37,261 nucleotides of DNA from a virus: positions 1 to 37,261 of the IMG/VR virus record IMGVR_UViG_3300047324_000033; one strand, 5' to 3'. The notes beneath the pieces are model-generated. The model saw nothing but the letters and a program-made list of their open reading frames with translations. It did not search any database and had not been told where the DNA came from. How positions within the stretch are numbered: the first letter of the stretch is position 1; each line of letters begins with the position of its first letter. Both the position numbers and the translations under genes were made by a program. This document shows, one piece after another, positions 1 to 37,261 of the stretch.

Positions 1-127
1 ATTGGTTCTTTATTAATTTTAATTTCCAATATTTTCTTTTTATTCATTTGTTTTTTCTTCATCGCTTAACATGTCGTAAATAGCTTGTTTAATTTAATCC
101 TTACCTTGCCTCTGCGTGCCGCGGAAT
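1..127. repeat. Terminal direct repeat (left copy), circle overlap
   Basis: Bases 1-127 are identical to 37135-37261. An exact repeat of this length at the two ends of a contig is what an assembler leaves when it closes a circle. The real unit is therefore 37,134 bases, either circular or circularly permuted. The repeat contains the 5' end of the gene at 36948-37196 and the start of pentamer array A, so both continue across the junction. Confidence 0.95.
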
Positions 128-235
128 GCCGTGCCCGACCTCAGCGAGCCTGACCTCAACTAACCGAACCACACCAGGATTAAATTCACCATGCCTTGCC
201 ACAGCGGACCGCACCACGCCGGACCGCTGCACACC
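96..235 (-). repeat. Degenerate 5-base-period array A (YNNGG on minus strand)
   Basis: Noncoding, GC-rich stretch between the minus genes at 244-474 and 36948-37196 (joined across the circle). On the plus strand CC falls at positions 4 and 0 modulo 5 from 99 to 235. I count CC at 20 of 28 successive sites. Most exceptions keep one C, and the register is not lost even across an AT-rich interruption near 176-188. The three other bases of each unit vary freely, so it is periodic without being a sequence repeat. Read as minus-strand RNA the unit is YNNGG. Confidence 0.85.
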
Positions 236-1111: not shown

Positions 1112-1145
1112 ATTACTTTCCTTTTTTTGTTGTTTTAATAAAATT

Positions 1146-1339
1146 AACCATACCTAACAGGACCAAACCGAGCCACACCGAGCCACACCCAACCTACCCC
1201 TGACGCGCGTTGCCAAGCACTACCCCACCAATCCAAACCAAACCAAACCCCAGCTTGCCCTGCCACACACTACCTCACCAATCCAGACCCTGCCTAACCC
1301 TGCCGTGCCTCATCAAGGCTCGCCTTGCCAAGTTTTACC
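1146..1339 (-). repeat. Degenerate 5-base-period array B (YNNGG on minus strand)
   Basis: Together with array C and the terminator this fills the gene-free stretch 1112-1527. On the plus strand CC sits at positions 3 and 4 modulo 5 from 1148 to 1339. I count CC at 30 of 39 consecutive sites with no slip. Units seen on the minus strand include TGTGG, CTCGG, TTTGG, CAAGG and TGAGG. The array lies in the leader of the minus gene at 488-1111, downstream of the portal terminator. An AT-rich gap at 1340-1388 may hold a weak minus-strand promoter. No open frame of useful length runs through it, and a 5-base period is incompatible with a simple codon repeat. Confidence 0.9.
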
Positions 1340-1388: not shown

Positions 1389-1420
1389 AAAAAAAAGAGG
1401 TAAGTTAAAAACTTACCTCT
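1389..1420 (-). terminator. Rho-independent terminator after the portal gene
   Basis: On the minus strand an 11-bp stem (1410-1420 with 1396-1406, AGAGGTAAGTT type) closes a 3-base loop and is followed by eight U (A run 1389-1396). It lies about 110 bases past the portal stop, with array C between. It separates the packaging genes from the unknown genes at 488-1111. Confidence 0.9.
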
Positions 1421-1480
1421 ACCTCGCCTTTCCTTACCTCGGCAGACAATGCCACGCCTCAGCATGCCTTGTCTTGCCAT
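1421..1480 (-). repeat. Degenerate 5-base-period array C (short)
   Basis: Plus-strand CC at positions 2 and 3 modulo 5 from 1422 to 1478, at 8 of 12 sites by hand count. It lies in the 3' untranslated region of the portal transcript, directly before the terminator stem. It is shorter and less regular than arrays A, B and D, but the G-rich strand is again the transcribed one. Confidence 0.65.
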
Positions 1481-1527
1481 GCTTTAATCTAACCTAAACA
1501 ATACATCCACACTTTAAACGAGAGTAA

Positions 1528-3660: not shown

Positions 3661-3717
3661 TAGCTAAAAAAGCTTATAGAGGATAAAATACAATATAAAT
3701 TTTATCTTGGCAATTGG

Positions 3718-3951
3718 CTATTGTTTGCCCCAATTGTAATAACCATACATTGCAATGCACGCAGAAACGCAACAGCTAACACTTTGTGATATGAGACCAC
3801 GTTGCAAATCCATGTAAAACCAATAAGACAGGCAAAAGATTTCGATGATGAAACATATTCTGTTTTTGCGAGCATTTAAGAATTTACCTGTCTTTCCTAA
3901 AAGTAAAAAACAAGCGTCTATAAGGTTGGCTGTTAATCCAAAAAGATCCAT
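3718..3951 (-). CDS. Small integral membrane protein, 77 aa
   Basis: Two or three hydrophobic segments are visible (about residues 5-20, 31-47 and 52-71), ending in a MYGYYNWGK tail. That tail resembles the C-terminal motif of PnuC-type transporters, but the protein is far too short to be one. It lies between terminase and portal, four bases after the terminase stop. Small membrane proteins here can be holins, and with no endolysin nearby that remains a guess. Confidence 0.65.
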   Translation of the reverse strand: MDLFGLTANLIDACFLLLGKTGKFLNARKNRICFIIEIFCLSYWFYMDLQRGLISQSVSCCVSACIAMYGYYNWGKQ

Positions 3952-3955
3952 TTGA

Positions 3956-5236
3956 TTAAAAATTACCTCGTGGTTGGAACCTGTTTTTTTGATATTCTAA
4001 AGCGCTGTGAGCGTAAGGGTTGTAGGTGACTACTTTATGAGTTTGCATGACATATCTGAGAGCATCAACGGCATGATCCCCTTTTTTAACTGGCTCATCA
4101 TCACCCATCAGAGATTTTTTATCATCCCATACATAGTTTTCTATTTCTCGTATAAGATTAGGACAATCTTTGAGAACGTAAAGATTACCTTTGGCCATCT
4201 CTGATGTCATGGTTTGAATGCCATTATACACATCATTATCGGCAGGGATTACATGGAGGCCTTTGCGTTGGAGTTCTAGTTTCATGGCTAAGGCGGATGG
4301 ATCTATGTAAATGCCTTTGATTGCATAAGGTTCTAAAAAGCTTTTAACATCTTCGGCAAACTCTGAGTTTACCTTTTGTCGTCCTGTTTTTTTGCAGTCC
4401 CAATAGTATTCTTTTTCCACCCAAATACGCTTACCGCTTTGTGTGTTATGCCCAGTAGCAACACCAATGAGTAGGCAAGCAAAAGCGTTGCTGACGCCAT
4501 AATCAATACCAGCGACCCAATACTCAGCCGCAGTAGGTGGCTTGCGTAACACATGCAGATCCCTATCAAAGAAATCGAATATTGCACCTTCAGCCATACA
4601 CCAAAGGCCAAGATAATTGCGCTTATAAAAAACACCGGATAAAGAACTTTTGATTCGGGCCTTATAGGATTCATCGACGAAAGGATTGTCCTCCAAAGTA
4701 AAGTGAAGTGCATAATAATTAGGATCTCCTTGAGCTGCTTTATCTATCCATTGTTTGACAATGTGTGATGGATGTGTTGGGTTCATCGAACACACGCCTT
4801 TAGAATAAGGCTTACGAAGACGAGTGTCTAGCATGTTAATGAAGTTTTCGGGATACAGGGTCATCTCATCACAATAGACAAGAGATAATGTACGACCTTG
4901 AATAAGGCCCACTGAGCCTTCGTCTTTGGCTCCGTATGTGGTTATCACCTTGTCTTTGTAGGTAAGTACTCGCCGGGACGGGTGCCACGCAAGGAAGGGC
5001 TTATAATTAGCCAGCTTAGGCTCTGTAAAATAGAGGTTGATAACGTTGTTATAGATAGTGGTAGCTGTTTTGCCAATCATGGCAATTTCTGAGTCAGGAC
5101 ACTTTTCTACCTGCAACATAAACCAATGAGCTGTTGCTATGGTTTTACCAGTGGACACCGAACCGTGTGTGATATTCCAACGCTTATTCGCATTAAGGAG
5201 AAATTCTAGTTGTTTTTGTGACAGTGGATCTTGCAT
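3956..5236 (-). CDS. terL: Terminase large subunit (ATPase and nuclease), 426 aa
   Basis: This is the motor that cuts concatemeric DNA and pumps it into the capsid. The N-terminal ATPase has Walker A GSVSTGKT at residues 25-32 and Walker B LSLVYCDEM near residue 120. The C-terminal RNase H-like nuclease shows GIDYGVSNA, YIDPSA and DHAVDALRY, giving the expected acidic residues. I take ATG at 5236. A longer frame from a TTG at 5272 adds a hydrophobic stretch with no ribosome site and would abut the divergent J-domain gene. No clear Shine-Dalgarno site precedes the ATG either. The small terminase lies about 1 kb upstream on the same strand, separated by three plus-strand genes. Confidence 0.93.
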   Translation of the reverse strand: MQDPLSQKQLEFLLNANKRWNITHGSVSTGKTIATAHWFMLQVEKCPDSEIAMIGKTATTIYNNVINLYFTEPKLANYKPFLAWHPSRRVLTYKDKVITTYGAKDEGSVGLIQGRTLSLVYCDEMTLYPENFINMLDTRLRKPYSKGVCSMNPTHPSHIVKQWIDKAAQGDPNYYALHFTLEDNPFVDESYKARIKSSLSGVFYKRNYLGLWCMAEGAIFDFFDRDLHVLRKPPTAAEYWVAGIDYGVSNAFACLLIGVATGHNTQSGKRIWVEKEYYWDCKKTGRQKVNSEFAEDVKSFLEPYAIKGIYIDPSALAMKLELQRKGLHVIPADNDVYNGIQTMTSEMAKGNLYVLKDCPNLIREIENYVWDDKKSLMGDDEPVKKGDHAVDALRYVMQTHKVVTYNPYAHSALEYQKNRFQPRGNF

Positions 5237-6252: not shown

Positions 6253-6710
6253 GCATCAGCAATCTGTTTGATGAGGTCTTTGTTTAGCTGTTCAGCTATC
6301 TTATAATCTTCTGATTTCTCTAACTTATCTGCTTGGGTTTTGAGCTTGTGTTGTAATTCGAGTTGCTCGTTTTCTTCTTCTTTGACATCTTTGCAATAGA
6401 TTCTGATAAACCGATGAGCAATGGATGGATTTACCGTTCCATTCATGTAATTTTTTGCCACAAGTGCTCTAGCCTGTTCATAATAAGGAAGGAACTCTGG
6501 TTTTTGGATATAGGCTTTAAAGGTTTCCCAAAGAATACCTTTTTCCACTGAAAACCACATATTGAGATGGAGAGGATTATGTTCTTTTACCCAGGCAACC
6601 ATTTCTTGTCCTAACTTAATAAGCTCGTCAGGTTCAGGTGTCACGGTTCTTGGTGCTCCTCTTTTATTTTTACCTGCGGTAGGGCCACTCCCAGGATATC
6701 CTTTCGGCAT
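6198..6710 (-). CDS. terS: Probable terminase small subunit, 170 aa
   Basis: The small terminase recognises the packaging site and hands DNA to TerL. I start at ATG 6710 (MPKGYPGSGPT). A longer reading from 6848 adds hydrophobic residues unlike the family. After a basic Gly/Pro/Lys-rich N-terminus come a helical domain with PEFLPYYEQARALVAKNYMNG, a pattern seen in phage TerS (helix carrying a YxxARxL motif), then a charged coiled-coil tail. Its position upstream of TerL and the iteron-like repeat just before it fit. The family call rests on pattern and context, without motif-level proof. Confidence 0.6.
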   Translation of the reverse strand: MPKGYPGSGPTAGKNKRGAPRTVTPEPDELIKLGQEMVAWVKEHNPLHLNMWFSVEKGILWETFKAYIQKPEFLPYYEQARALVAKNYMNGTVNPSIAHRFIRIYCKDVKEEENEQLELQHKLKTQADKLEKSEDYKIAEQLNKDLIKQIADAQGSLNKDSSNINNDNMS

Positions 6711-12049: not shown

Positions 12050-12593
12050 AGATTTAAGAGTAACTCAAATCCTGTCTCCTTTCTCAGGCTATAGTTATGT
12101 ACAAAAACATATCCTTGAAGAAGCAGCAGCTAGAGGAACCAGAATCCACGATTCCATCAAAGATTATCTTACCATAGGCAAACCTCTTATTGCGGAGAAT
12201 CCGCAAGAGCAAGGTTACCTTGAAAGTTTTAAAACCTTTTGGAAGCCCTTTTACAGCCCCGTGGTTGTTGAGAAAAGATACAACCAGGACGGATACACAG
12301 GTCAATGCGATTGTTTGATCCAATTCAAAAATAGGCACATCCTATTAGATTGGAAAACATCCAAGAGTGTAAACCGCACATGGGAGTACCAAACAGCAGC
12401 TTATAGAGATATGTGTCAAAATGAAGAAAAGATATTTATTGATGAATGCTGGGTGATACAACTTTTACCCGATGGCACAAACTTTGAATGTCATATCTTT
12501 GTAAATTCTAAAGAAGCTTTTCAAACTTTTTTAAAATGCAAGGATCTTTATGAGATATTTTTTAAAGGAAAAACAAATCAATTTTATGAATGA
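12027..12593 (+). CDS. PD-(D/E)XK exonuclease, RecB-like, 188 aa
   Basis: Such enzymes degrade DNA ends for recombination or host DNA turnover. The N-terminal HILEEAAARGTRIHDSIKDY carries the conserved RGTxxH helix. Then come GYTGQCDCLIQF (motif II Asp), HILLDWKTSK (motif III D-x-K) and EYQTAAYRDM (motif IV, QxxxY), as in the Cas4/AddB/lambda-type nuclease clan. No cysteine cluster for an iron-sulphur centre is visible. I start at ATG 12027 (MSTDN) instead of 12003, since the latter lies inside the previous gene with no better ribosome site. The ssDNA-binding protein follows after 79 bases. Confidence 0.85.
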   Translation: MSTDNLIEDLRVTQILSPFSGYSYVQKHILEEAAARGTRIHDSIKDYLTIGKPLIAENPQEQGYLESFKTFWKPFYSPVVVEKRYNQDGYTGQCDCLIQFKNRHILLDWKTSKSVNRTWEYQTAAYRDMCQNEEKIFIDECWVIQLLPDGTNFECHIFVNSKEAFQTFLKCKDLYEIFFKGKTNQFYE

Positions 12594-12672
12594 AACATTT
12601 TTATAAACATTGTGATGATACCATTTTTGGTAATGAATAAACAAAAAATTAAAATACATTGGAGAAATTAAA

Positions 12673-13212
12673 ATGAGTTTTTTACCAGCAGATTACGAGA
12701 ATCCTACAGCAAATAGCAACTACATGAAACTTAATGATGGAGAGAATAAGTTTCGTATTCTTTCAGCTCCCATTTTGGGATGGGAAGATTGGCAAGACAA
12801 AAAACCCATTCGTTACCGAATGGACAATAAACCATCAAAACCTATAGATCCTGCAAAACCGATTAAACACTTTTGGTCGATGATCGTATGGAATTACGCT
12901 ACAGAATCCATCCAAATCCTTAACATCACACAAGCAGGCATCCGAAGCTCTTTACAGTCCTTAAGTGAAGATTCCGACTGGGGAGCCCCTTACGGTTACG
13001 ATCTCAAGATTAAGAAAGAAGGAAGCGGCAAAGACACCAAATATTCAATATCCCCTCTTCCGCATAAAGAAATACCTGAGCATATTAAGTTAGCTTTTTA
13101 TGCTAAACCATGCAACTTAGATGCTCTTTACACAAACGATGACCCTTTTGCTCCTAATCAAAAAAAAGTAACACTGCCTGCTTTTGAAAAGGATCAAGAT
13201 GTTCCGTTCTAA
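12673..13212 (+). CDS. Single-stranded DNA-binding protein, 179 aa
   Basis: The sequence LNDGENKFRILS, KHFWSMIVWNY, QILNITQAGI, DWGAPYGYDLKI and a KYSISPLPHK stretch follow a phage ssDNA-binding family with one OB-like fold. The C-terminus ends acidic then DVPF, like the DDIPF tail by which bacterial SSB recruits partner proteins. ATG has GGAG upstream. Adjacency to the nuclease suggests a recombination or replication pair. A hairpin-like TACCA...TGGTA lies in the 79-base gap before it. Confidence 0.8.
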   Translation: MSFLPADYENPTANSNYMKLNDGENKFRILSAPILGWEDWQDKKPIRYRMDNKPSKPIDPAKPIKHFWSMIVWNYATESIQILNITQAGIRSSLQSLSEDSDWGAPYGYDLKIKKEGSGKDTKYSISPLPHKEIPEHIKLAFYAKPCNLDALYTNDDPFAPNQKKVTLPAFEKDQDVPF

Positions 13213-20421: not shown

Positions 20422-20453
20422 TTGAATTTAATCATTAGATTAAGTACTATCAA
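20422..20453. promoter_or_regulatory. Overlapping divergent promoters
   Basis: Plus strand: TTGAAT at 20422-20427, a 17-base spacer and TACTAT at 20445-20450. Minus strand: TTGATA (20453-20448), a 17-base spacer and TAAATT (20430-20425). Each -10 overlaps the opposing -35, so only one can be occupied at a time. The plus promoter would start transcription just before array D. The minus promoter serves the fibre operon. Confidence 0.55.
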
Positions 20454-20459
20454 GTAAAA

Positions 20460-20704
20460 CAGGGTGGTTAGCAGAGGTAAGGTCTGCTCGAGCTCTGGCC
20501 TGGTGAGCTGAGGACTGACCTGGCAAGTTCAGGTGAGGTCAGCTGAGGCGTGACCTGGTGGGGTGAGGATTGATCTGGAAAGTTAAGCCAAGATAGGGCG
20601 AGGCGTGATTGGGTTCGGCAGAGTGAGATGTGGTTAGGCAGGACTAGGTGAGCTCAGGTGTGTTTCGGCTCGTTTTGGACCGGAGCGACAAGGTTAGGTA
20701 AGGA
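20460..20704 (+). repeat. Degenerate 5-base-period array D (YNNGG on plus strand)
   Basis: This fills most of the gene-free stretch 20337-20726. From 20497 to 20703 G stands at position 2 modulo 5 at 41 of 42 sites, and GG at 25 of 42 (counted by eye). Before 20497 a one-base phase shift is seen (GG at 20466, 20476, 20481). The first base of the unit is nearly always a pyrimidine. The same YNNGG rule as arrays A-C applies, but on the opposite genomic strand. It is again the strand that would be transcribed, as leader of the gene at 20727. Confidence 0.9.
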
Positions 20705-20726
20705 TTTTTTTACATGGAGGTTTAAC

Positions 20727-20900
20727 ATGGATCGTTTTTTTGAAACTATAATTAACATGACTGTTGGAGCCGGTATTTACCTTTTTGGTGCACACCAAGG
20801 GGAAAAACAAGCTCGCAAAGACATTGAAGTTCAACTGCAACAAGCAGAAATCAATGAGCTAAGAAAACAATTGAATGAATTAAAAAATAGAAAAAATTAA
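20727..20900 (+). CDS. 57-aa membrane-anchored coiled-coil protein
   Basis: ATG at 20727 has a perfect GGAGG 6 bases upstream. Residues 4-22 form a hydrophobic segment (FETIINMTVGAGIYLFGA), then a basic turn and a coiled coil (QLQQAEINELRKQLNELKN). One N-terminal membrane helix with a coiled coil is the layout of inner-membrane spanins and of small phage scaffolds. It stands alone on the plus strand with its own promoter, the array D leader and a terminator, so it is probably controlled separately from the late genes on either side. Confidence 0.75.
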   Translation: MDRFFETIINMTVGAGIYLFGAHQGEKQARKDIEVQLQQAEINELRKQLNELKNRKN

Positions 20901-20910
20901 GTCAAACAAT

Positions 20911-20938
20911 AGCTAAGATTATTTCTTAGCTTTTTTTT
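20911..20938 (+). terminator. Rho-independent terminator of the 57-aa gene
   Basis: AGCTAAGA (20911-20918) pairs with TCTTAGCT (20924-20931), loop of 5, followed by T7 at 20932-20938. It ends the short plus-strand unit that starts near 20457. Confidence 0.85.
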
Positions 20939-21000: not shown

Positions 21001-23028
21001 TTATTGTTCATTTTTAGGTTTTTTCTTTTTAGGTTTTTTTTCTTTAGGTTTTTTCTTTTTAGGTTTTTTTCTTAATTTTTCCCAATAGTCGTATAATGTT
21101 TCTAGCTTATAGTAATTGGGATTTGGTGGCTGACCTTTTGCAGCTTTTTTGTATTTAGGATCTTTCAAGATTTCTTTGTGAAAAGCAGCCCCTAAAGATC
21201 GTCTATCTTCTTGTGACCAAGCGCCATAAATATTTTGTCCCTTGGTTATCGGTATACCCATTTTGTTAGCTATACGATAAACTTTATCAGGATCAACATC
21301 GTAATATTTATAAGTTGAGCCGTCGTGAAATTGGACATACATTTCAGCATCTTTAGGGTTATATAGAAATAAAACTATATTTGAAGATTTATCTACTTCC
21401 GGTATGTTTAAGATGTTTTGAACAGCTTTTATAATTTCTTTATCAGTTTTTACATAATCATCTTTACGATAACTTTTTTGCTTTCCATTAACATCGGCAA
21501 TTATCCCTTCTTTACCTTCAAATTCAATCTCTCCTGGGCCATTAGGAGTAATTACTACATCTTTTATTTCTTCAATAGGTATTGGTTTAGGCGCTGATTT
21601 TTGGGCAGCCTCTTGGCTTTCTTTTTCTTCTTTTTCTATAACGCGTTCAATTTCATTTGAACTCTGTTCTTTTAAAGCTACTTGTCCAATAGGTGTGCTT
21701 ATAAAATCAACATTTGGATATATTTTTTGCAACAACCTAACCCAATCTTCATTATCCAAAACACCGATAGGATTTAAAGTATTTTCAGGTGCATAATTAT
21801 TTGTAATTTCACGTTTAAAATCTTTATCGTTTAAATCCAACAAATCCAACATGTTTTGCGGAACATCCGATTCGTTAAACTCATTTGTTTTCTTAGCTTT
21901 TGTTAAAAAGATTTTTACATCTTTAACAAGCTTTTGCATGTCTTTTGTGTCAGAAGAACTTAAATCAAGAATTTTGGTTTTGTTGTTTGATTTTGTTTTT
22001 TGCAGCTTGTTTTGGTTTTTGGAAACTTCAGTTGGCAAAGCCGTTTCTTTCTTTAACAAATCATTAAAATCATTGTTTTGGTTGTTTTCTTTTACAGCTC
22101 CAGCAGTTCTTTGCGGCTCTGTATGCAACTGTTCTTGCCTTCCATAACCTCTTTCAAACCTTTCAATTTCTTCATCAATGAGAGATTGTTTTCTTTTTTC
22201 TTCAGCTTGTTTAGCCTGCACTTGCTGTTGGTGTTGCTGGTATTGTTGTAACGCTTGATCATGGCCTTGTTGAGCTTGTTGCTGATGCACAACAACCCCA
22301 TAATCCTGGATAGCTTGTTCAAAGCCCCCGGGAGCTCTATCTAAAACAGCTAACTTGTTTTTTGGTAGAGTTTGTCTTAAGAGCTGCATTACAGCAGCAG
22401 GAGCGAGCCCCGATGTAATTGCAGATGCAACCTGTTTACCAATACCGATATTTTCAATGATAGCTACGTTTTGCTCAGGGTCATGCTCATAAGGCGGGAT
22501 GATTGGTGTATTAGGTGTGCCTAACGCATTAGGAGCCCCTCCTTGAGGAGATCTAGGCCTTGGACCACCCTGTGTAGGTGCAGGGCCTTGCGGTGGTTGC
22601 TGGGGATTGTAAGGCAATTGTTTTTGAGCAGCTCCCGGCAACTGTGGCGGCGCCCCTTTTTGCCTTTGCGGTGAAGCCGGTAATATTTCACTAGGATAGA
22701 TAGCTCTATTTCTGTTTTGATAGTAATACAATCCTGCAGCAATGGCTCCTGCAGTTCCAACGGCTCCTATCAATCCTGTTTTTTGATTAAGATCTTTAGA
22801 TTTTTCACTTTTTCTTCTTTTTTCAACCTCAGTCAAATAACCCGTAAACTCTTGTTTAGGAGGTTTATTGGGATCGATAAATTTCTTAAGCACAGTATCA
22901 GCGGTATATCCAATAAGCAAAGCTTGATCTATCCGTTTTGCATATTGAGGATATTGACGAGCTATTTGATTTAAGATAGCTCTAGATGAATATCCGCTAG
23001 CTAATGCTTGTAAAATTTGAGATGCCAT
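21001..23028 (-). CDS. Probable ejection/internal virion protein with KTSC-like domain, 675 aa
   Basis: Third of three large helical proteins after the tail genes, the usual place for DNA ejection proteins. The N-terminus has a helical repeat (ASGYSSRAILNQIARQYPQY) and a short hydrophobic segment (GLIGAVGTAGAIAAGLYYY), then Pro/Gln-rich disorder. Near residue 490 is a small beta unit (TPNGPGEIEFEGKEGI), then a KTSC-like domain (YVQFHDGSTYKYYDVDPDKVY). The protein ends in a Lys/Pro tail. No lytic transglycosylase motif was found. It abuts the preceding gene. Confidence 0.65.
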   Translation of the reverse strand: MASQILQALASGYSSRAILNQIARQYPQYAKRIDQALLIGYTADTVLKKFIDPNKPPKQEFTGYLTEVEKRRKSEKSKDLNQKTGLIGAVGTAGAIAAGLYYYQNRNRAIYPSEILPASPQRQKGAPPQLPGAAQKQLPYNPQQPPQGPAPTQGGPRPRSPQGGAPNALGTPNTPIIPPYEHDPEQNVAIIENIGIGKQVASAITSGLAPAAVMQLLRQTLPKNKLAVLDRAPGGFEQAIQDYGVVVHQQQAQQGHDQALQQYQQHQQQVQAKQAEEKRKQSLIDEEIERFERGYGRQEQLHTEPQRTAGAVKENNQNNDFNDLLKKETALPTEVSKNQNKLQKTKSNNKTKILDLSSSDTKDMQKLVKDVKIFLTKAKKTNEFNESDVPQNMLDLLDLNDKDFKREITNNYAPENTLNPIGVLDNEDWVRLLQKIYPNVDFISTPIGQVALKEQSSNEIERVIEKEEKESQEAAQKSAPKPIPIEEIKDVVITPNGPGEIEFEGKEGIIADVNGKQKSYRKDDYVKTDKEIIKAVQNILNIPEVDKSSNIVLFLYNPKDAEMYVQFHDGSTYKYYDVDPDKVYRIANKMGIPITKGQNIYGAWSQEDRRSLGAAFHKEILKDPKYKKAAKGQPPNPNYYKLETLYDYWEKLRKKPKKKKPKEKKPKKKKPKNEQ
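21011..21070 (-). repeat. Short tandem repeat coding the Lys/Pro tail
   Basis: Four imperfect copies of a unit of about 15 bases (TTTTTAGGTTTTTTC on the plus strand) code for KKPKKKKP-type tail residues. Such repeats gain and lose copies easily, so tail length is probably variable between relatives. Confidence 0.7.
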
Positions 23029-25637: not shown

Positions 25638-28294
25638 TACGCTAAATGCGGTCCTCTATCTATGGTTAATTGCATCCCGTGCAAAGTAATCTCACTTGTC
25701 GCATAAGTTAAATTTCTCATCTGAGCATCGCTTAAGGTAATTCCAATTTGTACAGAATCACCAATCAAACTCGTGTTAAACCTATGCCATATTTGGTATT
25801 GGTTTTCAGCTGTTGGCATTTGTAGATTCACATTAGCAGGCGTTAAACCAATGTTTGTACTTTCAGGACAGGTGTACATAATCTGAGAATAGACTAAACC
25901 ATTAGGAGGAGGATTGACCATATTACTATTGTAAGCATTGTCAGGATCTTGGCTTAGGTAAAGATTAACAGTAACTTGAGAGGAAGCTGTATAGTCCATT
26001 AAGTATTTTTGAACTGATAATCTTAATTGTCTTCCTTCGTTCCAGTAAAAAGGAAACTGTCTAGTTTGTAAAAGAGGTTGAGACAACCTCGTAAAGGTCC
26101 CTAATCCTAAATAAGTCCCTGCCGGAAAAGGCAGATCTATTACAAAGTTATTGGCATCTATAATTTTTACCACTTGTCCAACGAGATTGTTGATAGATGT
26201 TGTCCCTAAACAACCTGTAATAAACAAATAATCGCCTGTTCCTGTGCCTGGATTTGAAGCCGTTACACAATGGTTTGTAGATGTTATCTGAGTATTGCCA
26301 TTGTAATCACTAATTGCTTGAATGGTTCCTGAAGGTGCTTCACCTGTTCCTTGACCAATGATTAACACATATCCTTGTGGATTGCCTGCAATGATATTTG
26401 TAAATAAAGCTGAAGATGATCCCGAATTCCAAGGCTCTCTCCACACTGACCAAGATGCAAATCCTGTGGTCTTCCAAGTCCTTTTTATCTGCGGTCTGTA
26501 TCTACCATGGGCAGTGAAATTCTCATACAAAACAGCCCAAGTGTTGTCTCTATAATTAAACAAAAATGTCTGTGTAGGAAACTTCCAAGGGCTATTGTTT
26601 ACAGGATAAGAAAAATAGATCCATTCTTTAAAAAAGTCTCTAATTGCATTAACTCTTAGCACGCCATTGTTAAGAGATTGTACTTGGAAAACACTATCGG
26701 GGATCTCAAGATCTATTCTTTGAGAGCTTTGTTGATCTGTCATAGATATTCCGTAAGGGCCAAGATCAATAGCACCCTTATCTAAAGCAACAGCTGAAAA
26801 AGTTGAAGAAGAAGGCAATTCAGAGTTAATATTGAAAAAAAGAAAAGGTTGCAGATCATTACCAGTATAAACAAATCGTGTTTTTCTGCCATCTCCTCCA
26901 AACCCCACTAAAAGAACATCTTCGTTGTTGCTTACGGTTGTAATTGGCTGTGAAATACCTGCGGGAAGATAACCTCCTGCACCAGTCTGATCTACATAAT
27001 AAGCAATGATATTAAAAGTTTCACCTGTAGGAACAGGAGCTGCATAATATGGTGTGCCGTTCCAACTCCATAAAGCCGTATCAGAAAGTTGTATTGCATT
27101 TCCCGTGCTTGTTTGTATGTATGGACTAAAAAAGATAAGCCTATCTTTAAAAGGCACAATAGCCAAAGCCCCCACAAGGTAATAAGTGCCTGCAGTTTCG
27201 TTATCTATAGAAACAGTACCTGCAGTTAATGGAGGAGCAAAATTAACCCATCCCAAGCCTGTGTTTGTCGGTAACCCTGTTCCATTTGTAGGATCTCCAT
27301 CATACCATTTAATGCCATCTTGTCCCGGTATGGTATTTGTTAACAGTTGAGCTATTCCACCGCCGGTCACTGTTTGAGCTGTTGCAAAAGTAACTACATA
27401 GTTTCCAGCTGCTGCTCCTGCAATGCTTGAAACAGTTCCTGTTATGTTGTTAACAGTAGATCCTGTGAATTCATTAAACCAAAGTTTATCACCAACAACA
27501 AGCGTTGTAAAATTGACGCCAAGATTTTTTAGATTAAACGTAACTGTTGTAGATCCGCTTCCTGAAACATATGTAGCAGTTACAAAGTTAAATCCCGGTT
27601 TATTGTTGGTAGCCCACAAAGCCCCTGAATAGTTTGTAGTCCAAAAAAGTTGATAATCAGCTCCTGACCAAACAAAAGGTATATTTGTGCCTTTGTAATA
27701 ATTGACATTATAAAAAAACACAGACGTTGAGCTTTGGTTGATTTGATAGCTATTGGTAGTGTCAAAGGCCATCAAAAGGGGATAAAGCATGTTAACGCCG
27801 GGAGCTACAAAATCCCTAAGCCCCATCACAGGATTACCTGGAAAATAGCTAAAAAAGCCTGTTAAAGGCCCTACAGTTGCGCCGGTTATTGTGACAGTAC
27901 CTGTGGCATAGTTTATAGTTCCTGTGCCGCCTAAAGAGCCTGTAAGCGTTCCATTGGGTATCGTAGGCTCTGTATATGTTTGTCCGCTTACAACAAAGCT
28001 AATAGATCCCGGAGTGATTGTTGAGGTTGTCGGCAATCCTAAATAGGTTATGAGGTTAACAGCACCGCCAACTAAAGCTATTGGTCCATCTTGCCACGGT
28101 AAAGCTCCTGACGCTACAGACTGAACTTGAATTTCCAACTGACCTAAAAAGATAGTTCCTCTTTTACGTTTAGCTCTTCCTCTCCAAGAGTAAAAATTAA
28201 ACATCGTAGGAAAAGCATCATTATCAATAGCAAATGGAAGCCTATCAAGTTTTAAGCCTTTGGAGAAGTTACCTATGAACAGTTGGTCAGGCAT
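25637..28294 (-). CDS. Large tail/stopper protein, 885 aa
   Basis: The N-terminus (GLKLDRLPFAIDNDAFPTMF, then NFYSWRGRAKRKRGT) is a common start for the large tail proteins of short-tailed phages that follow the adaptor, comparable in position to P22 gp10 and T7 gp12. The remainder is beta-rich, with at least two inserted domains rich in TTVTF/VVGD motifs like those in the 383-aa protein, and a C-terminal beta region. It is the largest gene in the genome and probably forms the tail nozzle. The function is inferred from position and composition. Confidence 0.7.
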   Translation of the reverse strand: MPDQLFIGNFSKGLKLDRLPFAIDNDAFPTMFNFYSWRGRAKRKRGTIFLGQLEIQVQSVASGALPWQDGPIALVGGAVNLITYLGLPTTSTITPGSISFVVSGQTYTEPTIPNGTLTGSLGGTGTINYATGTVTITGATVGPLTGFFSYFPGNPVMGLRDFVAPGVNMLYPLLMAFDTTNSYQINQSSTSVFFYNVNYYKGTNIPFVWSGADYQLFWTTNYSGALWATNNKPGFNFVTATYVSGSGSTTVTFNLKNLGVNFTTLVVGDKLWFNEFTGSTVNNITGTVSSIAGAAAGNYVVTFATAQTVTGGGIAQLLTNTIPGQDGIKWYDGDPTNGTGLPTNTGLGWVNFAPPLTAGTVSIDNETAGTYYLVGALAIVPFKDRLIFFSPYIQTSTGNAIQLSDTALWSWNGTPYYAAPVPTGETFNIIAYYVDQTGAGGYLPAGISQPITTVSNNEDVLLVGFGGDGRKTRFVYTGNDLQPFLFFNINSELPSSSTFSAVALDKGAIDLGPYGISMTDQQSSQRIDLEIPDSVFQVQSLNNGVLRVNAIRDFFKEWIYFSYPVNNSPWKFPTQTFLFNYRDNTWAVLYENFTAHGRYRPQIKRTWKTTGFASWSVWREPWNSGSSSALFTNIIAGNPQGYVLIIGQGTGEAPSGTIQAISDYNGNTQITSTNHCVTASNPGTGTGDYLFITGCLGTTSINNLVGQVVKIIDANNFVIDLPFPAGTYLGLGTFTRLSQPLLQTRQFPFYWNEGRQLRLSVQKYLMDYTASSQVTVNLYLSQDPDNAYNSNMVNPPPNGLVYSQIMYTCPESTNIGLTPANVNLQMPTAENQYQIWHRFNTSLIGDSVQIGITLSDAQMRNLTYATSEITLHGMQLTIDRGPHLA

Positions 28295-28848: not shown

Positions 28849-30062
28849 ATTGTAGATCCGCCTATGTTGTTAAAACCTGATTGTCCTTGATTTAGCCCTT
28901 GGCTGTAGATCGTTTGTGTTCTTGAGCTTGTCCATTGTCTTTGAGATCTCTTCCAAACAAGCAATTCTTGCTCTTTAAAAAGAGGCTCATAAAACATAAA
29001 CTGCTCTGTATCTCCTGTATCTGCAAGGATCTTTCTAGCAGCTCCTCTAGCTATATATTCTGCCATGTATCCAAACGGAATAGCAGCCCCTGTATTGAAA
29101 AAAGCTGCAGGAGATAGATAAGCATCCAGCTCAACAATGTATTGCGTATCCGGAGGACTTCTGAGCGTTATAATGTTATTGTAAAACAGAAGTGTTCTTG
29201 GCAAACCACATTGGAAATAATAACAAGTGCCGCTGATGTCAGCTCCTTCGGGAATGGCTGAAGGAAAATACACATTTGAAACAGTGCCCGTTATGTAATT
29301 AACCACGTTTTGAGTTGTGCTATAACCATTAGGTAAAGCTACAGAACCGTAAGGAGCTAAACCGGGAGACATTAAAAGGCCTAAATTAGCATAGTTAGTG
29401 CCTGCAACTTGAAGGAATTGTCCAGAATCTTGAACAATAATGTTGTTACCGTTCACATCTATGGACGTTAAGTAAACAGCAGGAATAATACTTGTGGTTG
29501 GGATAGCTGTATTGATTGTAGTCCCAAAGTAAGGATCTTGATTGCTGCCTGTAGCTATAATGCCTGTAATATCAACATGCCCTCTTAAGATGTATTGAAA
29601 AGGAGGGTTAAGAGGGTTAGAGTTATTAGGTGTAATAGGAAAAGTAAGAGTGTAAGGTCCCGCTGATCCATTACCTGTGCCTACGACATTAAGTTGCTGA
29701 GTAACATTTGGGTAAATATTAAAAAAGGACTCTTTCTGAGTTTGAAAAGGCACTTGTATCCCGTTAATGTAAGCAGGGCCTAAAAAACCCTGATACACAG
29801 GATAAATGCCAATATCTTGAGAATTAGGAACACCCGGAGTTTCTGACTGTACAGAATACAAAGGCATATTGTACTGATCAACCCCGGGTTGTGTCACAAA
29901 CTGGTATTTAGTTTTAAGATCAAATAATTGCATCCTAGCGTCAACATCCATGATCCAAAATCTATTGATGTAATCAATAATCAAGGCATCAGTGATTTGA
30001 GAGTCCGATGGACTTTTGATGATTCGACGTACATATGTAATAACTGAACTTAAAAAATTCAT
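28845..30062 (-). CDS. Head-tail adaptor / tail accessory protein, 405 aa
   Basis: The N-terminus (VITYVRRIIKSPSDSQITDA, then LIIDYINRFWIMDVDARMQL) and the long beta-rich body fit the adaptor family below the portal (gp4/gp11-like) in short-tailed phages. The last part is helical (EYIARGAARKILADTGDTEQ) with an aromatic Gln-rich end. It overlaps the gene on either side by 1-4 bases, so the connector genes form one tight operon. Confidence 0.65.
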   Translation of the reverse strand: MNFLSSVITYVRRIIKSPSDSQITDALIIDYINRFWIMDVDARMQLFDLKTKYQFVTQPGVDQYNMPLYSVQSETPGVPNSQDIGIYPVYQGFLGPAYINGIQVPFQTQKESFFNIYPNVTQQLNVVGTGNGSAGPYTLTFPITPNNSNPLNPPFQYILRGHVDITGIIATGSNQDPYFGTTINTAIPTTSIIPAVYLTSIDVNGNNIIVQDSGQFLQVAGTNYANLGLLMSPGLAPYGSVALPNGYSTTQNVVNYITGTVSNVYFPSAIPEGADISGTCYYFQCGLPRTLLFYNNIITLRSPPDTQYIVELDAYLSPAAFFNTGAAIPFGYMAEYIARGAARKILADTGDTEQFMFYEPLFKEQELLVWKRSQRQWTSSRTQTIYSQGLNQGQSGFNNIGGSTI

Positions 30063-36955: not shown

Positions 36956-37196
36956 TTTTTAACCATTTGCCCCATCGATTTAAATATACAATTGTTTCAT
37001 ATGTTTGATCAAGTCCTAGTTCTTTGCATTTGTCTGCGTCTTTAATGATTGCTTCATGTTCTTTTCTGCCATTTACATTGATGTATTGAACAGGGATTTG
37101 TTCAGGCAATAGATGTTCGCCATTTTCCAATGATATTGGTTCTTTATTAATTTTAATTTCCAATATTTTCTTTTTATTCATTTGTTTTTTCTTCAT
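36948..37196 (-). CDS. Small unknown protein, 82 aa, crossing the repeat
   Basis: The start (ATG at 37196, or a second Met at 37181) lies inside the terminal repeat, so the same bases also occur at 1-62. The basic N-terminus and a beta-helix body (ILEIKINKEPISLENGEHLL) are visible. No family is recognised. On the circle it follows array A and is read with the gene at 36584. Confidence 0.65.
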   Translation of the reverse strand: MKKKQMNKKKILEIKINKEPISLENGEHLLPEQIPVQYINVNGRKEHEAIIKDADKCKELGLDQTYETIVYLNRWGKWLKNE

Positions 37197-37261
37197 CGCT
37201 TAACATGTCGTAAATAGCTTGTTTAATTTAATCCTTACCTTGCCTCTGCGTGCCGCGGAAT
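37135..37261. repeat. Terminal direct repeat (right copy)
   Basis: Exact copy of bases 1-127. See the left copy. It should be counted once when the circle is closed. Confidence 0.95.

Follow-up and report, generated by a model that had tools for sequence, protein, structure and literature searches.

A probable displaced guide array of a phage VIPR system upstream of a small membrane-protein gene

A run of 49 pentamers of the form NN-G-(G)-Y, located at positions 20462 to 20704 on the plus strand of an IMG/VR phage contig and referred to here as array D, is probably a vrRNA array that belongs to the VIPR (Viral Interference Programmable Repeat) system of this same phage and has been displaced. 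The window, meaning the whole stretch of 37,261 bases analyzed, carries portal, terminase, capsid, and primase/helicase genes. The assignment is drawn from a repeat that matches the published code, from a vipr gene encoded in the same window, and from same-strand arrays found at 28 of 29 vipr loci. The initial annotation, made from the window alone, missed the Vipr homologue that links arrays A to C, and did not recognize D as the displaced array. The system itself is already known as VIPR; D is a variant in being displaced and very long, an arrangement absent from the main text of the VIPR preprint.

Results

VIPR is described as an RNA-guided system that phages direct against rival phages, with SUSP1 and P. 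fulva clades (PMC13142463; bioRxiv 2026.04.26.720920). According to the main text of that source, its effector, Vipr, is related to the RAMP proteins of CRISPR systems and is called an ancestral RAMP, with a RAMP fold made of an RRM core, a glycine-rich loop, and a thumb, and an accessory gene, vap, adjoins vipr. The guides, or vrRNAs, consist of 9 to 16 YNNGG repeats in which GGY is kept and NN is hypervariable; they lie in intergenic regions flanking vipr and end in an invariable structured 3' tail, and staggered overlapping arrays are mentioned. DNA is recognized through the NN bases with one nucleotide skipped (NNxNNx), and transcription is repressed; RNA binding, the skip rule, and repression all come from SUSP1 and P. 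fulva VIPR (PMC13142463). CRISPR class 1 RAMP complexes, built on a Cas7 backbone, are comparable in their way of working only, in that a guide RNA is held by repeating subunits, whereas VIPR pairing is noncontiguous and the window holds neither a repeat-spacer array nor cas genes.

The window protein encoded at 488 to 1111 on the minus strand (207 amino acids, phrog_4652) is, by sequence comparison, a homologue of Vipr. It matches SUSP1 Vipr (PDB 36pp) in a phmmer search with an E value of 2.7e-5, and a profile of the window clade from which SUSP1 relatives were left out matches the same protein at 1.3e-9, with only the conserved C-terminal glycine motif aligning between the two proteins. The gene is flanked by array A (96 to 235, minus strand; two blocks of about 10 and 16 pentamers) and by array B, of about 38 pentamers, directly upstream of it (1144 to 1329, minus strand). 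Array C (about 1412 to 1482, minus strand; 12 to 13 pentamers) has an upstream promoter-like site matching at 10 of 12 positions (1527 to 1555) and is followed by an intrinsic-terminator-like hairpin (1396 to 1420), both on the minus strand. The second G of the triplet is kept in 18 of 26 pentamers of A, 33 of 38 of B, and 9 of 12 of C. Part of array A is also copied by a 127-bp direct terminal repeat (1 to 127 and 37135 to 37261), which probably reflects overlapping ends in the assembly of a circular or permuted genome. As candidates for vap, the 75- and 82-amino-acid genes neighboring vipr gave no informative family matches; vap families are diverse, and unlike the published systems the window has no recognizable vap gene.

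In their ~200-amino-acid phage Vipr and in GGY/NN pentamers with hypervariable NN, intergenic around vipr and on its strand, the window locus and the published systems agree. The tandem repeat with a fixed triplet and variable NN is clear in arrays A to C and takes the form GNY in D, and the position flanking vipr holds for A to C but not for D. Array C falls within the published 9 to 16 repeats per vrRNA, whereas D, with 49, lies above them. Array D further departs from published VIPR in lying about 19 kb from vipr, on the opposite strand, ahead of an unrelated gene, and with a looser second G. Its remote site weakens the description of D as an ordinary vrRNA locus, not the presence of VIPR in the window.

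The nearest Vipr relatives (DSL-LC04 and contigs L326, L327, L328, and L002; 58 to 67% identity) belong to the same Vipr clade, and their arrays adjoin vipr on its strand, being short and degenerate in L327 and long and multiblock in the other four. They differ from the window in showing no displaced array in the records or parts searched and, for L326 and L328, in blocks separated by hairpins. By eye, these short hairpins, which part the array blocks at 6608 to 7211 of L326 and 6611 to 7193 of L328, differ in sequence but are alike in shape (e.g., GACTGATTAATTTCAGTC and GACTCGAAAGAGTC). Capsid relatives of the window (L349 to L354) occur in six GTDB metagenome-assembled genomes assigned to Nitrospiraceae, Bacteroidales, Chlamydiia, Patescibacteria, Pseudomonadota, and Peregrinibacteria; given such conflicting groups these are probably misbinned phage contigs, and they point to no single host.

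The regularity of array D is well beyond chance. A G at 41 of 42 in-phase sites on the plus strand had been reported for part of the array, and this count is reproduced and extends to 46 of 49 over 20462 to 20702. The period-5 score is 85; the highest value reached was 20.6 when the whole window was shuffled 60 times with dinucleotides preserved, and 31.4 when D alone was shuffled 1,000 times. The 49 pentamers follow one another without a gap. Among the runs measured, whose median is 14, none with 90% G or more exceeds D; those in L326, L328, L235, and LESphi2 that are longer span several blocks and are poorer in G (G fractions in this comparison are derived from scores). The ending of D resembles that of array A (GGTAAGGATT), and D shares its triplet class with A to C. 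The ends of A, B, and D have in common GG(T/C)A(A/T)GG, after which the sequence is A/T rich.

By column, G1 is kept in 41 of 42 pentamers, G2 in 25 of 42, and Y in 37 of 42, while the two N columns are near random, with entropies of 1.99 and 1.82 bits. The loose second G, together with the lack of a detectable target, would suit a former vrRNA array that has decayed and has no present function, yet the retention of G1 and Y at these levels over 245 bases points to current constraint, and we regard decay as highly improbable. Other assignments were tried and rejected. A simple tandem repeat is at odds with the varying N bases, the sole TRF unit within D spanning 20 nt, and a coding sequence with the period of 5 and with stops that interrupt every frame inside D. 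Rfam has zero matches in the window, which speaks against an RNA of a known family, and a TRAP-regulated leader would show (G/U)AG triplets with 2-nt spacers rather than the fixed GGY/GNY found here. RNA secondary structure predicted for D gave z scores of -2.5 to -2.8 against dinucleotide shuffles; as z is only -1.5 against shuffled pentamer order, D has no clear RNA structure.

The 3' end of D lies about 11 bases upstream of a GGAGG ribosome-binding site (20716 to 20720, plus strand), so that D forms the apparent 5' leader of a 57-amino-acid open reading frame (20727 to 20900, plus strand) whose product is predicted to have a single hydrophobic stretch and a tail resembling a coiled coil. 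An intrinsic-terminator-like hairpin (20911 to 20931) with a T tract reaching 20938 follows on the plus strand. The initial annotation had placed D between a plus-strand promoter and a GGAGG-led small gene with its own terminator; the small gene and a terminator-like hairpin are indeed present, but the promoter is only a weak candidate (TTGAAT-17 nt-TACTAT, 20423 to 20451, plus strand), matching at 8 of 12 positions against a scan threshold of 9 of 12. Somewhat further on, a 15-base repeat, TTTTTAGGTTTTTTC, occurs four times at 21011 to 21070, in the C-terminal coding end of a 675-amino-acid gene, and gives a lysine-proline tail.

Relatives of the window phage were gathered by capsid and terminase. 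In four relatives the matching site is an opposite-strand small-gene cluster that includes homologues of the 57-amino-acid protein, at 30 to 39% identity in three relatives and 20% in one. No array is present at this site in any of the four. Because these relatives carry the small genes without the array, D and the 57-amino-acid gene are separable, and the proposal that promoter, array, gene, and terminator form a self-contained cassette loses its footing, the more so with a weak promoter. From these comparisons, D most likely arrived at a pre-existing small gene rather than being formed as a unit with it.

The placement of D could alternatively be taken to indicate a regulatory leader, on which Vipr or another protein would control the 57-amino-acid gene through ribosome block or changed termination, so that the product appears only at low levels of free Vipr; in the same way, array B would be autoregulatory for vipr. 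Consistent with this are the position of D within the apparent leader, the similar placement of B directly before vipr, the degenerate second G of D, and the distance to vipr. However, arrays are absent from the homologous small genes in four relatives, the N columns of D vary beyond the need of a pure binding array, many phages have their arrays between genes or on the downstream side of vipr, and C comes with a promoter-like site and a terminator-like hairpin. A leader function is therefore in our judgment rather unlikely.

Searching DNA for a GTTNN repeat pattern gave further array contigs. Many phage contigs contain pentamer arrays whose N bases vary; in each contig the arrays keep to a single strand, occupy intergenic gaps, and share the coding strand of the adjacent genes. 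The gene common to these neighborhoods encodes a ~200-amino-acid protein of phrog_4652. Cultured phages with both vipr and arrays include MakoManhole, Trine, LittleE, Medea1, LESphi2, VpaE1, DSL-LC04, phiHSIC, and SUSP1, and the phrog_4652 gene is also present in many Felixounavirus phages besides VpaE1. In a scan of nonredundant loci, 28 of 29 had a same-strand array within 1.5 kb of vipr; at the remaining locus, L327, arrays that are short and degenerate can be seen by eye. Matches on the opposite strand were confined to two GC-rich phages. As a positive control, SUSP1 showed the array pattern only at 27618 to 27966 and 29164 to 29236, on both sides of the vipr-vap genes, in agreement with the sequenced vrRNAs of PMC13142463, of which one lies upstream and three lie downstream. 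Nine whole cultured VIPR genomes and near-complete IMG/VR records gave isolated weak matches only and no further array that is clearly displaced.

This survey speaks to the earlier proposals that the G-rich strand tracks transcription and that the function lies at the RNA level. Both gain support, the first from the placement of arrays on the vipr coding strand and the second from the fit to VIPR, in which repeats of this kind serve as guide RNAs (PMC13142463, main text). A fixed triplet every five bases would in principle also be compatible with an array of sites at the DNA level that has nothing to do with Vipr and serves a DNA-binding protein, a primase, or the formation of R-loops. The strand rule, the tight link of arrays to a Vipr homologue, and the published RNA function oppose this; we reject a priming or R-loop element for D, and we give the DNA-level explanation as a whole almost no credence.

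The wider set of contigs also shows variation in array form. Arrays of GTT-NN type are found in L003, L141, L126, L129, L164, L178, L181, L193, L204, L208, L235, L238, L242, L243, and others; elsewhere the fixed triplet is of GGA, GGC, GCA, or GGT type, varying by phage but always with G first. Period-6 arrays occur in L096 (885 to 1071) and L157 (351 to 650), as GGGTAC/GGGAAC and GGCTCT/GGCTAT, respectively. L164, L217, L230, L241, and L268 have varied pentamer arrays and no Vipr homologue in the part of the contig fetched; they are possibly fragments or Vipr-borrowing elements. A full tRNA (Rfam RF00005, 65 bits) lies between the vrRNA arrays of L265 (2532 to 2602, minus strand), and minihelices resembling an acceptor stem plus T arm lie between arrays of actinophages (L318, about 1650 to 1693; L321, about 4200 to 4250; L322, about 3700 to 3745). 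Such separators suggest vrRNA processing by tRNA-maturing enzymes; the main text of PMC13142463 makes no mention of a tRNA between arrays. L235, which also carries a VIPR locus, contains a HEARO RNA (RF02033, 157 bits) at 12529 to 12750 on the minus strand.

Searches for targets of D and of A to C under skip rules of 0 to 3 nt gave none above chance in 2.5 Mb and 4.4 Mb of phage DNA. An IMG/VR scan with three nine-dinucleotide segments of D and one of C returned few matches, none of which extend, and a codon-position signature of the NN bases was computed without a clear signal either way. The lack of a target for any of the four arrays is weak evidence. The same lack, with the great length, displacement, and looser triplet of D, could be reconciled with a decoy or counterdefense role, in which D would be an RNA sponge for the Vipr of a competing phage and would need correct triplets but no target. 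Conflict between VIPR systems does exist, with some vrRNAs aimed at other VIPR systems (PMC13142463, main text). A sponge would nevertheless soak up the phage's own Vipr too, and the Vipr of rivals would have to bind the triplet class of D, which makes this role quite improbable.

Discussion

When array D is placed into the context of VIPR, a path from sequence to function can be proposed for it as a displaced vrRNA array. D would have been inserted ahead of a small gene that was already there, and a plus-strand transcript would carry the 49 pentamers followed by the 57-amino-acid reading frame. Vipr made from 488 to 1111 on the minus strand could then load in trans and coat the D RNA, probably with one subunit per pentamer. 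By analogy with SUSP1 and P. fulva VIPR, it would hold the GGY/GNY triplet and leave the NN dinucleotides exposed, and these may pair with the DNA of a rival element as NNxNNx, so that transcription is repressed there. Given the staggered overlapping arrays mentioned for VIPR, the D RNA might serve as several guides, whether or not it is cut.

Several points count against D as a VIPR guide: the separation of about 19 kb and the other strand, 49 repeats where 9 to 16 are published, a second G in only 25 of 42 pentamers, the lack of a target, the lack of a recognizable vap gene, and the weak promoter. It is conceivable, though we consider it unlikely, that D is a single continuous 49-repeat guide or polymeric ribonucleoprotein, coexpressed from the opposite strand with the gene of a small membrane protein, possibly one for lysis, and would thereby form a second guide program timed separately from the main VIPR locus.

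In the literature searched, VIPR is represented by one 2026 preprint only, and the window adds an independent clade. If D is a displaced vrRNA array, as we think probable, an array of this type can leave the vipr locus and sit before an unrelated gene, and searches confined to the vipr neighborhood will miss guides. The displaced array makes testable whether guides act in trans, whether array length has a limit, and how guide repertoires spread among phages.
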